From NCBI GenBank assembly GCA_008933615.1, contig WBUR01000020.1, forward strand, positions 1-64,000: 64,000 nucleotides of DNA, in the 5' to 3' direction. The stretch's first letter is position 1. Every line of letters begins with the position of its first letter. The notes beneath the pieces were generated by a model. That model saw only the letters and a program-made list of their open reading frames with translations, ran no database searches and was not told the DNA's origin. Source of the stretch: a bacterium. GTDB taxonomy: Bacteria; CLD3; SB21. This document shows, piece by piece, positions 31,978 through 37,273 of this stretch. A program made the translations under genes and the position numbers.

Positions 31978-32928
31978 ATGTCGATGAGTCACTATTTCCG
32001 TGGAGTATCGCTGATTTGTCTAGCTGCATTATGTTGGAGCAGCGCGGGGTTACTCATTAAGATCATTAATTTACCGCCGATACAGATTGCTTTATATCGA
32101 TCTTTCGTTGCCGGAGTTTTTCTTACCGTATATGTTTTATACAGAAAGAAAAGACTCCAAATTCCGTTCCGGTTCACCATCACGCGATGGTCGATTATCA
32201 CGGCGCTCTGCTATGTGTTTACTGTATCGCTTTTTGTAATTGCCAACAAACTCACGACTTCTGCGAATGCCGTTTTTCTCCAATACACAGCTCCTGTATA
32301 TGTGATCCTTGTCACTTATTTTATATTTAAGGAAAAAGTGTACGCCGTTGAGATCGCTACCGTTTTTATTTGTCTCGGCGGCATGATCCTTTTGTTTATG
32401 GAGGAAGAAAAGTCCACAGCCCTGGCAGGAAATATTTTCGGTATCTTGTCAGGAATCGCATTTGCATTTCTGCAAATATCGGTCAAGAAGTCCGAACAAA
32501 ACGCTTCCCTTCCCATGACAGCTCAAAGCGATATCAGCGGTATATTTAATTTGGCATTTGGAAACGCGGCGACGGTGATCGTTTTGGGGATTGCCATATC
32601 GGCCGTATACGCATCTTCCTCCGGTTCGGCCGCTTCCCCGCTATATAGCATCTTTGGAGAAGGATTTTCGATAACCTCAAACGATATTGTCGGTTTGCTC
32701 CTTCTCGGCGTTTTTCAGCTCGGCATGGGTTATTTATTTTTTGCGAAAGGGGCAAAATATATTTCGAATGTGGAGATCGCGATCTATACATTACTCGAAC
32801 CGATACTCAATCCGATCTGGACTTTTCTTGGAACGGGTGAATTTCCTGGATTCTGGGCGATCATCGGCGGCTGTCTGGTTCTCTCCGCAATTATGGTCAA
32901 TACGGTATTTAGAAAAAATGAAGTGTGA
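31978..32928 (+). CDS. EamA/DMT-family transporter
   Basis: 316 aa with about ten membrane helices in two EamA repeats. AALCWSSAGLLIKII and SANAVFLQYTAPVYVILVTY occur in the first; LLLGVFQLGMGYLFFAKGAKYI and YTLLEPILNPIWTFLGTGE in the second. Drug/metabolite transporters of this family export or import small metabolites; the substrate is unknown. Start at MSMSHYFRG; an ATG two codons in is an alternative. It faces away from groES, so the 318-base gap carries promoters for both; an AAGGCGG site precedes the ATG. The insertion patch begins 64 bases after its stop. Confidence 0.88.
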   Translation: MSMSHYFRGVSLICLAALCWSSAGLLIKIINLPPIQIALYRSFVAGVFLTVYVLYRKKRLQIPFRFTITRWSIITALCYVFTVSLFVIANKLTTSANAVFLQYTAPVYVILVTYFIFKEKVYAVEIATVFICLGGMILLFMEEEKSTALAGNIFGILSGIAFAFLQISVKKSEQNASLPMTAQSDISGIFNLAFGNAATVIVLGIAISAVYASSSGSAASPLYSIFGEGFSITSNDIVGLLLLGVFQLGMGYLFFAKGAKYISNVEIAIYTLLEPILNPIWTFLGTGEFPGFWAIIGGCLVLSAIMVNTVFRKNEV

Positions 32929-32991
32929 GCCTGATATAAACCTAAAATGGTTTGCACGTCATATAAATCAATATTAATTTGCACGTAATCT

Positions 32992-33008
32992 TTCCCACTT
33001 GAAAAGGG
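32992..33008. repeat. left arm (outer part) of DUF559-flanking inverted repeat, split by IS
   Basis: TTCCCACTTGAAAAGGG. Joined to 34305-34318 after removal of the IS and one target copy, it makes a 31-base arm that matches the reverse complement of 34703-34733 at 28 positions. Confidence 0.8.
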
Positions 33009-34299
33009 TGTACAGACTGGGGACATAGGTAATGGTTGTTCGGAGACATAGGTAACAGTTAAATTGGTATGATTGTTTATTAAAGGAGAAATAATCATGC
33101 CATGGAAAGAAGTTAACCTTATGTCTCTGCGTAATGAATTTATTCAATTAGCCTCCCAAGAGGACGTTTGTATGAACTTACTCTGTCATCGTTTCGGTAT
33201 TAGTACCAAAACAGGCTATAAATGGCTTCATCGTTATCAAAGCGAAGGAATAGAAGCCTTAAAAGATCTTTCTCGTCGTCCCCATCGTAGTCCGAACCAA
33301 ACCCCACCTAAGATCGAAGAAGCCATAGTTCGATTACGAAAAGCCCATCCGGCCTGGGGTGCTCGTAAACTTCGCAGACGCTTGGAAACAATGCATGGCG
33401 GTTATTGGCCCAGTGTAAGCACCATTACCACAATTTTACATCGCCACGGGTTTATCCACCCTTCTGAATCTGCCAAACACAAAGCCTGGCAACGTTTTGA
33501 AGCTGCCTCTTCCAATGACTTATGGCAGATGGATTTTAAAGGTCATTTTCCCATTGGCAGTGAGCCGTGTCATCCTTTAACCATCTTGGATGATCATTCC
33601 CGTTTTAATCTCGGTTTGTATGCCTGTGTGAATCAAACCCGCGACACCGTGCAGCAATACCTAACTGCTGTTTTTCATTGCTATGGCTTGCCCGCCTGTA
33701 TCATCACGGACAACGGTATGCCTTGGGGCGCTCCAGACTGTGAAAGCTATACCGGATTGAATGTCTGGCTGATGCGTCTTGGTGTGATTGTCAGTCATTC
33801 TCGCCCTAAACACCCACAAACCATGGGCAAAGACGAAAGATTTCACCGCACCTTAAAAGCCGAAGCCATCACCGGGTACTATTTTAACACGCTCATAGAT
33901 TGCCAACAGCATTTTGACACATGGCGTATGATCTACAATCTTGAACGGCCCCATGATGCGCTCGGTGGCAACGTTCCAGCTAGTCGGTATCAAATAAGTC
34001 AAAGAACATTTCCGGAATCACTTCCGGTTATCGAATATGAGCCTGATATTTTGATTCGAAAAGTACACGATAAGGGCGAAATCTATTTTCGAAGTCGAAT
34101 GATCCGAGTCGGAAAAGCTTTTCGAGGCTTACCGGTAGCACTCAAACCATCAAATACCGATGGCGTATTCAACGTCTTCTTTAGTCACTTCAAAATCTCA
34201 GAATTTAACTTGAATGATAAATCCAATTAACCCATGTTTAAACAAACAACCGTTACCTATGTCCCCGAACACTTGTTACCTATCTCTCCGGTCTGTACA
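33009..34299. mobile_element. IS481-family insertion sequence, 1291 bp, intact
   Basis: The ends are inverted repeats starting TGTACAGAC and continuing imperfectly for about 50 bases. Both ends contain two spaced copies of an ACATAGGTAAC-like motif (transposase sites). A 5-base target duplication AAGGG flanks it (33004-33008 and 34300-34304). It carries one complete DDE transposase gene. The insertion lies inside the left arm of another inverted repeat, so it is the younger event. Ends, duplication and gene are all intact, which suggests recent movement. Confidence 0.92.
33097..34230 (+). CDS. IS481-family DDE transposase
   Basis: 377 aa. N-terminal helix-turn-helix (about 15-60, NLLCHRFGISTKTGYKWLHR) and a second helical DNA-binding unit, then the rve integrase core. 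Catalytic residues are D in LWQMDFKGHFP, D in CIITDNGMPWG and E in GKDERFHRTLKAE. AAAGGAGAAATAATC precedes the ATG at 33097; the eight codons upstream in frame are not needed. The frame is complete, so the element may be active. Its left end lies 80 bases after the EamA gene and its right end 44 bases before the DUF559-kinase fusion. Confidence 0.94.
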   Translation: MPWKEVNLMSLRNEFIQLASQEDVCMNLLCHRFGISTKTGYKWLHRYQSEGIEALKDLSRRPHRSPNQTPPKIEEAIVRLRKAHPAWGARKLRRRLETMHGGYWPSVSTITTILHRHGFIHPSESAKHKAWQRFEAASSNDLWQMDFKGHFPIGSEPCHPLTILDDHSRFNLGLYACVNQTRDTVQQYLTAVFHCYGLPACIITDNGMPWGAPDCESYTGLNVWLMRLGVIVSHSRPKHPQTMGKDERFHRTLKAEAITGYYFNTLIDCQQHFDTWRMIYNLERPHDALGGNVPASRYQISQRTFPESLPVIEYEPDILIRKVHDKGEIYFRSRMIRVGKAFRGLPVALKPSNTDGVFNVFFSHFKISEFNLNDKSN

Positions 34300-34304
34300 A
34301 AGGG

Positions 34305-34318
34305 GGTTAGGGGGATTT
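34305..34318. repeat. left arm (inner part) of DUF559-flanking inverted repeat
   Basis: GGTTAGGGGGATTT, the continuation of the arm interrupted by the IS at 33009-34299. It ends 25 bases before the start of the DUF559-kinase gene. Confidence 0.8.
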
Positions 34319-34343: not shown

Positions 34344-35249
34344 ATGCCTCATATACCCTACAAAAAGAACCTAAATAAATTTGCGCGTCAACTGAGAAAA
34401 AACTCGACGCGTGGCGAAGTCATGTTATGGAAACACTTGAGCGGACGAAAATGTTGTGGTTTGCAATTTAATCGTCAAAAGCCATTAGGAAAATACATTG
34501 TCGATTTCTACTGCAAAGTAAAATGCCTCGTGATCGAAATCGATGGTCATAGTCATGGATTTGAAGAAGTATATCAAAAAGACATTTTAAAGCAAGCGGA
34601 TTTGGAATCGATGGGATTGACTGTTCTGCGTTTTTCTGAAGGCGAAGTTCGGAATAATATTGACAGTGTTCTACAGACCATCGAAGCTTTCATAAAAAAA
34701 GATAATCCCCCTAACCCCCTTTCCAAGGGGGAACAGAATCTGCCACACCATATCTATCTGTGCGGATTCATGGGCAGCGGTAAAACCACCGTGGGAACCC
34801 TGCTCGCCGAGAAACTAGGTTATTCATTTATTGATACCGATCATCTGATCGAGCAAAATGAGAAAAAATCTATTAGTGAAATTTTTACGTATTCGGGCGA
34901 GGCGCAATTCCGTGAAATAGAAATCAGAGTCATAGAACAGGTTATCAAATCAAATCAGAATACGGTTATTGCATTGGGCGGCGGAAGCCTCCTGCGTGAA
35001 GAAAACCTGAATCTGATAGAAGCTGACGGATATCTTGTTTATTTACACGCCGATCTAAACATCATAGCCAAAAGGCTACAGTCAGATTCTGCGCGACCGA
35101 TGTTGCAGCGAGCTCCCGTAAAGGCGTTGTTCAAGCAACGCAGACCGGGTTATGAAGCCGCCGATCTGATCATCAAAACGCAAAACAAGAGTCCTGCCGA
35201 AGTTACGGAAGCTTTATTCCATAAGCTTTGCCGCCTCGTTAAGAAATAA
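34344..35249 (+). CDS. aroK: DUF559 nuclease-like domain fused to shikimate kinase
   Basis: 301 aa in one frame. Residues 1-118 are a DUF559 domain of the PD-(D/E)xK nuclease fold, with D54 in KYIVDFYC and E65/D67 in VIEIDG. Residues 120-131 (NPPNPLSKGE) are encoded by the right arm of an inverted repeat. Residues 136-301 are a complete shikimate kinase: P-loop GFMGSGKTT (141-149), D164/D166 in IDTDH, R190, GGGS (212-215) and lid RRPGYEAAD. Between the linker and the P-loop no ATG, GTG or TTG occurs in frame, so the kinase needs the DUF559 start. Kinase phosphorylates shikimate in the chorismate pathway; the nuclease domain's role is unknown. Confidence 0.9.
   Translation: MPHIPYKKNLNKFARQLRKNSTRGEVMLWKHLSGRKCCGLQFNRQKPLGKYIVDFYCKVKCLVIEIDGHSHGFEEVYQKDILKQADLESMGLTVLRFSEGEVRNNIDSVLQTIEAFIKKDNPPNPLSKGEQNLPHHIYLCGFMGSGKTTVGTLLAEKLGYSFIDTDHLIEQNEKKSISEIFTYSGEAQFREIEIRVIEQVIKSNQNTVIALGGGSLLREENLNLIEADGYLVYLHADLNIIAKRLQSDSARPMLQRAPVKALFKQRRPGYEAADLIIKTQNKSPAEVTEALFHKLCRLVKK
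34703..34733. repeat. right arm of DUF559-flanking inverted repeat, inside a coding frame
   Basis: Contains CCCCCTAACCCCCTTTCC. Its reverse complement matches the reassembled left arm at 28 of 31 positions. It is translated as the linker of the fusion protein. Confidence 0.85.
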
Positions 35250-35271
35250 ACCGATTCCTGACGAATTTGTC

Positions 35272-35827: not shown

Positions 35828-37273
35828 TTAAAAAGCCCGAATCGCACGCACGTAATACGATTCGTATTTAAAGCTGGAGTACTGGCCACCATCGCCGAAG
35901 TACTGGTACTCCGCGATGTAAACATTATCCTCAGAAGAACTCCAATAGTTAGAATCACCGAAGCCGCCAACCACTGCTTTGTTCACGTAAAGTTTGTTTA
36001 ATTCATCTTTGCTTGGTAAATACCAGTCGTTATAACTATCCAATACTAAATCATAGCACAATTTGGCTGCATAGCTTCCTGCTCCTTGGGCTGCAACAAT
36101 GGCATTTGTATTTGTATTTCCTGTGCCAATTGCAATTCCTGCTGCTCCTGTTACTATATTACTGCCATTATACCATTGTATACTCGTTCCTTGGTCGGTT
36201 GGCGCGGCTATTAATCCGTGTGATTGGCCCGCTACGTACCCGGAATCACCGGGCTGCAAAATATAAAATATTTTGCCACCTTGATAACTATCGCCAATTG
36301 TGAGAGTAGTGAAACTTTCTTCACTGCCGTAACTCGTTCCCACGCTATTCGTAACGTATGCTTTTACATAATAGGTCGTATTCGGTGTCAAACTTGTAAT
36401 GGAGCTTATGAACAAACCAGTTCCCGTTCCATTGGATGTGTGTGCATCAGCTATTGTTGGATTCTGTGATGTGCTCCAGCAAACACCTCTTGCTGTTACC
36501 GCTGCACCGCCATCTGCGGTTACATTGCCACCGCTGGAGGCTGTTGCTGTGGTGATATTCGTCATGGAGGCTGTAGTAACTGTAGGTAGTACAACGACGC
36601 CTGTAGCAAAACTAACTTCATTTCCATAATTAGTTCCTGCGCTATTGGTTACATACGCTCTGACGTAGTATGTAGTATTAGGAAGAAGATTTCCCATTGA
36701 GCTTACATATGCGCCTGTGCCGGTACCGTTGCTTGTGATACTGTCGGTGATCGTAGGATTAGCCGATGTATTCCAGCAAACCCCTCTCGCGGTCACCGGT
36801 GCGCCGCCGTCTGCCGTGACATTGCCTCCCGTGCTTGCTGACGTAGAAGTGATATTTGTTATAGTAGTGGTTGTAACGGTCGGAACTAGTATTGGATTTG
36901 TAGTGAAGGTGACTTGATTTCCATAAGATGTTCCAACGTCATTGGTTGCATACGCTTTGACGTAATACATCGTGTTGGGCGATAAGCCGGTAATGGAACT
37001 CGCGAATGGACCGATCTCAGAGCCTTCCGTAGTGTGACTATCTTCGATGGTAGGGTTCTGCGATGTACTCCAGCACAAACCGCGGGCCGTAATGTCAGCA
37101 CCGCCGTCTGCTGTTACGTCGCCGCCGCCGCTTGCGGTTGTTACCGTTATGCTTGTAATGGATGCTGTAGTTACTGTTGGCGCCTCTTTTTTATCTGACT
37201 TCTCATCACATACAATTGAAGTGATGCATACCAACAAACATAGGAAAAACAAAATGCTTTTTGAATATTGCAT
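35828..37273 (-). CDS. exported protein with three FN3-like repeats and a C-terminal DUF1566 domain
   Basis: 481 aa. Signal peptide at residues 5-22 with a Cys in SIVCDE (a poor lipobox, so lipidation is uncertain). Three tandem FN3-like repeats of about 95 residues follow (to about 320), each with TADGGA.VTARG.CW and TYYVKAY.TN. The rest is DUF1566, a C-type-lectin-like fold: GGKIFYIL, DWYLPSKDELNKLY, YWSSSE and a final YYVRAIRAF. Likely a cell-surface binding protein. The last 24 codons before YVRAIRAF are unusual: half end in C and most code Y, S, G, D or F, like a diversified region (see findings). AAAGGAGTAATATGT precedes the ATG. Confidence 0.88.
   Translation of the reverse strand: MQYSKSILFFLCLLVCITSIVCDEKSDKKEAPTVTTASITSITVTTASGGGDVTADGGADITARGLCWSTSQNPTIEDSHTTEGSEIGPFASSITGLSPNTMYYVKAYATNDVGTSYGNQVTFTTNPILVPTVTTTTITNITSTSASTGGNVTADGGAPVTARGVCWNTSANPTITDSITSNGTGTGAYVSSMGNLLPNTTYYVRAYVTNSAGTNYGNEVSFATGVVVLPTVTTASMTNITTATASSGGNVTADGGAAVTARGVCWSTSQNPTIADAHTSNGTGTGLFISSITSLTPNTTYYVKAYVTNSVGTSYGSEESFTTLTIGDSYQGGKIFYILQPGDSGYVAGQSHGLIAAPTDQGTSIQWYNGSNIVTGAAGIAIGTGNTNTNAIVAAQGAGSYAAKLCYDLVLDSYNDWYLPSKDELNKLYVNKAVVGGFGDSNYWSSSEDNVYIAEYQYFGDGGQYSSFKYESYYVRAIRAF

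Follow-up and report, generated by a model that had tools for sequence, protein, structure and literature searches.

A DUF559 nuclease module between palindromic arms joined in frame to the 5′ end of the shikimate kinase gene aroK

Described systems and the aroK unit

Palindromic selfish DNA that lies in frame within protein-coding genes, including metabolic genes, and that is not removed by splicing is known from Rickettsia (Rickettsia palindromic elements, RPEs; Ogata et al. 2000, 2002, via PMC10969869). An RPE is about 150 bp long and encodes a short peptide only, with no nuclease. The unit described here resembles RPEs in being palindromic and in frame in a metabolic gene. However, it measures ~450 bp without its insertion sequence (IS), carries DUF559 between its palindromic arms and can supply the start codon of its host gene; it falls outside the definition of an RPE.

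A second comparison is the ShiLan element, a nuclease-bearing, non-splicing insertion in phage methylases (PMC11855218). The likeness consists of a nuclease-encoding insertion (there in a DNA methylase gene) that has no intein or intron features and brings no stops into the host frame. The ShiLan nuclease, however, is of the HNH type and lies out of the host frame, its hosts are phage genes, and no inverted-repeat arms are mentioned (PMC11855218). At aroK, DUF559 is in the host frame and the arms belong to the unit.

A DUF559-type nuclease inside a host protein is likewise a feature of inteins whose homing endonuclease is of the EDxHD/DUF559 type (PMC9403480 connects DUF559 with EDxHD). In contrast to these, no splicing domain was found in the aroK fusion or in the arm-bordered insertions, and the module apparently stays in the protein. 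No intein or Hint match was found in the aroK fusion with Pfam, which places it outside the inteins. The Vsr-like (EDxHD) homing endonuclease I-Bth0305I (PDB 3r3p) was weakly similar in sequence to the DUF559 module (E 0.074), but it is encoded in a mobile intron, with no palindromic arms and no fusion.

REP and MITE sequences are similar to the arms in that they are short, hairpin-forming repeats that also occur as solitary copies, and the core repeat was found in solitary copies at other places of the genome studied here. They differ in that the arms border a nuclease gene, and no transposase with matching ends was found. Between the arms there was DUF559 alone, save for a later IS481-family element in the left arm, so the unit is not a DDE/IS transposon. 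No description of arm-bordered DUF559 cassettes was found in the literature, among open-licence papers.

The fused gene, its arms and its relatives

The window, i.e. the whole stretch of 64,000 nucleotides that was analysed, contains a single frame of 301 codons (34344–35249, + strand) made up of DUF559, an arm-coded linker and a complete shikimate kinase (Table 1). In the Pfam search of the fusion, DUF559 matched residues 9–117 (E 5.4e-31; 107.1 bits against a cut-off of 20.6) and SKI matched residues 143–294 (E 4.8e-47; 160.5 bits, above the cut-off), with an intact P-loop. The genome of the window (G000) was compared with those of two other species of its genus (G001 and G002) and with three genomes from two sister genera (G004, G005 and G006). 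An earlier note on this DNA had described an in-frame DUF559–shikimate kinase fusion with a repeat arm as its linker codons. The open reading frame and the Pfam matches confirmed the former, as did its gap-free presence in three species, and the right arm indeed encodes the linker (NPPNPLSKGE in the window) and is in frame in all three of them. Elsewhere in the window, positions 35828–37273 (− strand) encode a protein that is predicted to be exported and in which a domain of ~90 residues (TVTTASGGDVTADGGA... type) occurs three times.

Table 1. Features at the aroK locus, in window coordinates
Feature	Position	Strand	Basis
EamA-type transporter gene, upstream of aroK in the sister genera examined	31978..32928	+	ORF; sister-genus junctions
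Native start of aroK, possibly stranded: AATGAAG close to the 3′ end of EamA	32916..32921	+	Weak; similarity of a few bases, G000/G001/G002 vs G004/G005/G006
Left arm, outer half (TTTCCCACTTGAAAAGGG), cut off by IS	32991..33008 (about)	+	Junction comparison
IS481-family element, ends TGTACAGAC...GTCTGTACA	33009..34299	+	Pfam rve, LZ_Tnp_IS481; ends and target duplication
Left arm, inner half (AAGGGGGTTAGGGGGATT)	34300..34317	+	Repeat search; IS junction
DUF559 nuclease module (PD-(D/E)XK, Vsr-like)	34344..34703	+	Pfam PF04480; PDB 3hrl; conservation over 81 DUF559 sequences
Right arm, linker NPPNPLSKGE in frame	34704..34732	+	Hairpin CCCCCTT-TCC-AAGGGGG; in frame in all three species
CTG codon L133, exact position of the ancestral aroK ATG	34740..34742	+	Alignment with sister genera; AAGGGGGA SD-like ~8 nt upstream; predicted RNA fold
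Shikimate kinase domain (aroK)	34752..35249	+	Pfam PF01202; P-loop GFMGSGKT from 34764; sole SKI match in genome

The DUF559 module matched PDB 3hrl with an E value of 1.1e-16. Conservation was judged against the reference set of DUF559 sequences, and the positions conserved in at least 97% of them were kept in the fusion with the exception of one R-to-K change. E25, D54, E65, D67, H71, D80 and R96 were kept in all three species; the E, D, E-x-D and H among them are the presumed catalytic residues. With nearly all conserved positions in place, among them the acids presumed to be catalytic, the nuclease probably is intact. Elsewhere, a DUF559 gene has been assigned to the EDxHD homing endonuclease family (PMC9403480), and a Caulobacter DUF559 protein has been described as Vsr-like and linked to a DNA damage response (PMC12907096).

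The core arms of the inverted repeat (34299–34317 and 34704–34722) are 19 nt each, 100% complementary and 386 nt apart, and the right arm runs on to about 34732 as a hairpin (CCCCCTTTCCAAGGGGG). The repeat is not due to chance, because its inverted-repeat score was 19.0, compared with a 99th percentile of 12.3 over 149 shifted control positions. The IS481-family element is 1291 bp long, with a 5-bp target duplication (AAGGG at 33004–33008 and 34300–34304), and is missing at the matching place in G001 and G002. Its insertion into the left arm is a younger event, outside the fusion itself. The repeat arms that the earlier note had placed on either side of DUF559 were thus both present, but the splitting of the left arm by the IS had been missed. 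The EamA gene and the fusion now lie on either side of the element, which may influence transcription of the fusion. On the 5′ side of the fusion in G001 (L019), the outer-left-arm region was present in two copies, one of them degenerate. No clear target-site duplication of the DUF559 cassette itself was found at the aroK locus. A recent origin of the cassette by copying from a further DUF559 of this genome was rejected: at the DNA level none of the others matched it, and they are flanked by different repeats.

The codons from the linker to the P-loop (34704–34769) include no ATG, GTG or TTG, and the first in-frame ATG past the linker, at 34770, already lies within the P-loop. The proposal that the kinase depends on the start of DUF559 therefore holds for canonical start codons. 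The same stretch contains two CTG codons; one of them, at the position of the old start (L133), had been overlooked in the earlier note.

G001 and G002 had the identical fusion architecture, with 301 residues and no gap relative to G000. The start codon was ATG in G000 and G001 and TTG in G002. No frameshift between the domains was found in any of the three species, and a search of the same three for an aroK lacking the module found none. Each genome of the genus gave one SKI-family match, i.e. the fusion is the only shikimate kinase, and the SKI-family search found no second one elsewhere in these genomes. A scan of named genomes for the fusion returned only the MAG contig JAEUSJ010000083.1, which was identical to G001.

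Across the three species, dN/dS was 0.10–0.20 in the DUF559 half and 0.20–0.23 in the kinase half; these values indicate purifying selection on both halves, with the nuclease half constrained at least as strongly as the kinase half. The comparison of G000 (window 34344–35250) with G001 (L019) revealed stretches of 100% identity (about 34480–34600) amid patches of 70–90% identity. This patchwork points to probable recombination between species, and for this reason G000 and G001 are not fully independent witnesses; G002 is more independent.

In the sister genera (G004, G005 and G006), aroK was plain and began at an ATG of its own that overlaps the stop codon of EamA (ATGA). The CTG133 codon of the fusion aligns exactly with this ATG (M-K-E-K-IYLCGF in the plain gene, L-P-H-H-IYLCGF in the fusion). 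The uninserted gene bears out an insertion at the 5′ end of aroK. A native aroK start downstream of the module, which the earlier note had named as evidence against its reading, was found in relatives only in the sense that the plain gene of the sister genera starts at the CTG position of the fusion; no plain aroK was found within the genus. The simplest history is an insertion at the EamA–aroK overlap in the genus ancestor, with the exact point deduced from the sister genera.

DUF559 loci in other genomes

We compared the 350-nt flanks of 83 DUF559 loci from many unrelated genomes for inverted repeats, with 149 positions shifted by 900 nt within the same loci as controls. The median of the best inverted-repeat score was 16 at the DUF559 loci and 9 in the shifted controls. 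The control 95th percentile was exceeded by 61 of the 83 loci, in line with the statement of the earlier note that DUF559 reading frames commonly have flanking repeats. A score of at least 18 was reached by 35 of the 83 loci and by none of the 149 shifted controls. Flanks from different loci, when mispaired, reached this score in 8 of 400 cases, because many elements have G-rich arms in common. At 22 of the 83 loci no repeat above the threshold was found, meaning that DUF559 is not always part of such a cassette.

The arm sequences varied between elements. The common plan was a short hairpin with a further, G-rich copy of the stem strand adjoining it, often TTAGGG(T/A)GAGGG or TTAGGGGGATT. Agreement between tail and stem was higher within than between elements, although the effect was small (p 0.0015, pairs not independent). 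A cassette origin of the aroK-fused DUF559 is well supported, both by the comparison of relatives and by this survey.

DUF559 genes were also searched in 386 diverse genomes, and strong matches in frames of more than 500 codons were inspected. Those inspected were insertions in DUF1156 methylases, HsdR, MmeI-like and Eco57I-like proteins, mostly with both arms translated; in the remaining ones (L052, L059 and L061), DUF559 lay inside an intein-like insertion. In this diverse sample, in-frame DUF559 insertions were found almost only in restriction-modification enzymes (L049, L050, L051, L053, L055, L057, L058 and L149); mobility of these host genes, their tolerance of insertions or a protective effect of methylation may be the reason. 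In L052, L059 and L061, DUF559 is the nuclease of the intein-like insertion, and the hosts are DNA methylase genes or fragments; L052 and L059 had an Intein_splicing match below the Pfam cut-off.

In family f259, a family of small-genome bacteria in the phylum of G330, DUF559 was found inside PriA, PrmA, an AddA/UvrD-like helicase, a radical-SAM protein, an M14 peptidase and IspE. The IspE insertions of several genomes share one variable loop (GISAKEAYTKF to NDLEWA), and IspE is plain in most of the family. The earlier note had proposed to look for further DUF559 fusions with the repeat as linker; in-frame DUF559 cassettes with translated arms exist in restriction-modification genes, priA, prmA, addA-like genes and ispE. 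Same-phylum searches around G123 and G037, with only three genomes each, yielded no new fusions. The in-frame landings in other core genes suggest a little-described class of selfish element.

In three genomes (loci L137, L139 and L140), DUF559 and an arm were fused to the N-terminus of IspE, and in L137 and L139 there was no ATG, GTG or TTG between DUF559 and IspE. Close relatives of these genomes have a plain IspE with its own ATG. In G486 (L177:1063–2262), a nuclease of an unrelated family, GIY-YIG, bordered by a different inverted repeat (GCGGGCTTGACCCGC type), was joined in frame to the same end of IspE. This recurrence in ispE is the strongest support for the idea of start capture put forward in the earlier note. 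The IspE of G772 (L200) is extended at its N-terminus by arm-like sequence but has no nuclease there, as would be expected after nuclease loss. An arm-like IspE insertion without a nuclease was also seen in the shared loop in G459 (L199); L199 and L200 are possible scars of such losses.

Explanations for the fusion and their meaning

The explanation we hold to be probable is start capture, in which a palindromic element that is protein-coding and bears a nuclease took over the start of aroK and the kinase is made as a DUF559–linker–AroK fusion. A small cassette (arm, DUF559, arm) would have inserted in the genus ancestor at the aroK start, which then overlapped the EamA gene. The frame used is free of stops throughout the right arm, so that translation from the DUF559 start would pass through this arm into the kinase. 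The sole shikimate kinase would now be made as DUF559–linker–AroK, with the fusion protein as the working enzyme. The unit may spread by nuclease-stimulated copying at palindromic repeats, in a homing-like manner, and the capture of the start would make it costly to lose. Its retention in three species, with a dN/dS of about 0.1–0.2 in DUF559, agrees with the suggestion in the earlier note that the cassette became hard to lose, but falls short of proof.

In the main rival explanation, the kinase is made alone from CTG133, with AAGGGGGA of the right arm as ribosome-binding site, and DUF559 merely lies upstream in the same frame. In all three species the CTG does stand exactly where the ancestral gene started, with the SD-like AAGGGGGA ~8 nt before it; however, an unchanged CTG in three species is not significant at a dS of 0.4–0.8. 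CTG is very rare as a bacterial start codon, and both the SD-like run and the CTG are paired in a stable predicted RNA fold (−23.1 kcal/mol, z −3.3). Moreover, the frame was kept over the junction in three species, which would be unneeded if the kinase were translated independently, and the parallel ispE cases L137 and L139 lack even a CTG between DUF559 and the kinase. We regard a separately started kinase as unlikely.

Even less probable is a functional domain fusion, in which the nuclease would have come to act together with the kinase, or in its regulation, and selection for a host function would keep both. Purifying selection on DUF559 and its intact catalytic positions would fit such a role, but the nuclease and the kinase share no pathway. 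Arms of the same kind also accompany the module in several unrelated kinds of protein, one of which has it at different positions. The genes that it hit are plain in neighbouring species, and in ispE a GIY-YIG nuclease is found at the site that DUF559 uses. An artefact of assembly or annotation, or a recent frameshift joining two genes, has a negligible probability: the window comes from a draft genome of 97 contigs, but the same gap-free fusion in the two other, separately assembled species (G001 and G002) rules this out.

The probable capture of the aroK start by a palindromic nuclease element is a concrete and testable case in which a selfish element would tie itself to an essential gene through the start codon that it provides, and by the survey it is not a one-off. 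A wider claim, to which we give about even chances, is that there is a widespread selfish class in which a DUF559 or GIY-YIG nuclease sits between in-frame hairpin arms and spreads into genes without splicing, some copies persisting because they have become the only translation start of a gene that is essential and single-copy (in one genus aroK; elsewhere, repeatedly, ispE). If true, this would place a nuclease-bearing class beside the Rickettsia palindromic elements and the ShiLan-type insertions. DUF559, whose function is officially unknown, might then be what drives a mobile unit bordered by repeats. Many DUF559 fusions and 'NPPNPLSKG'-type linkers that have been puzzling in proteins of bacteria would be accounted for as well.
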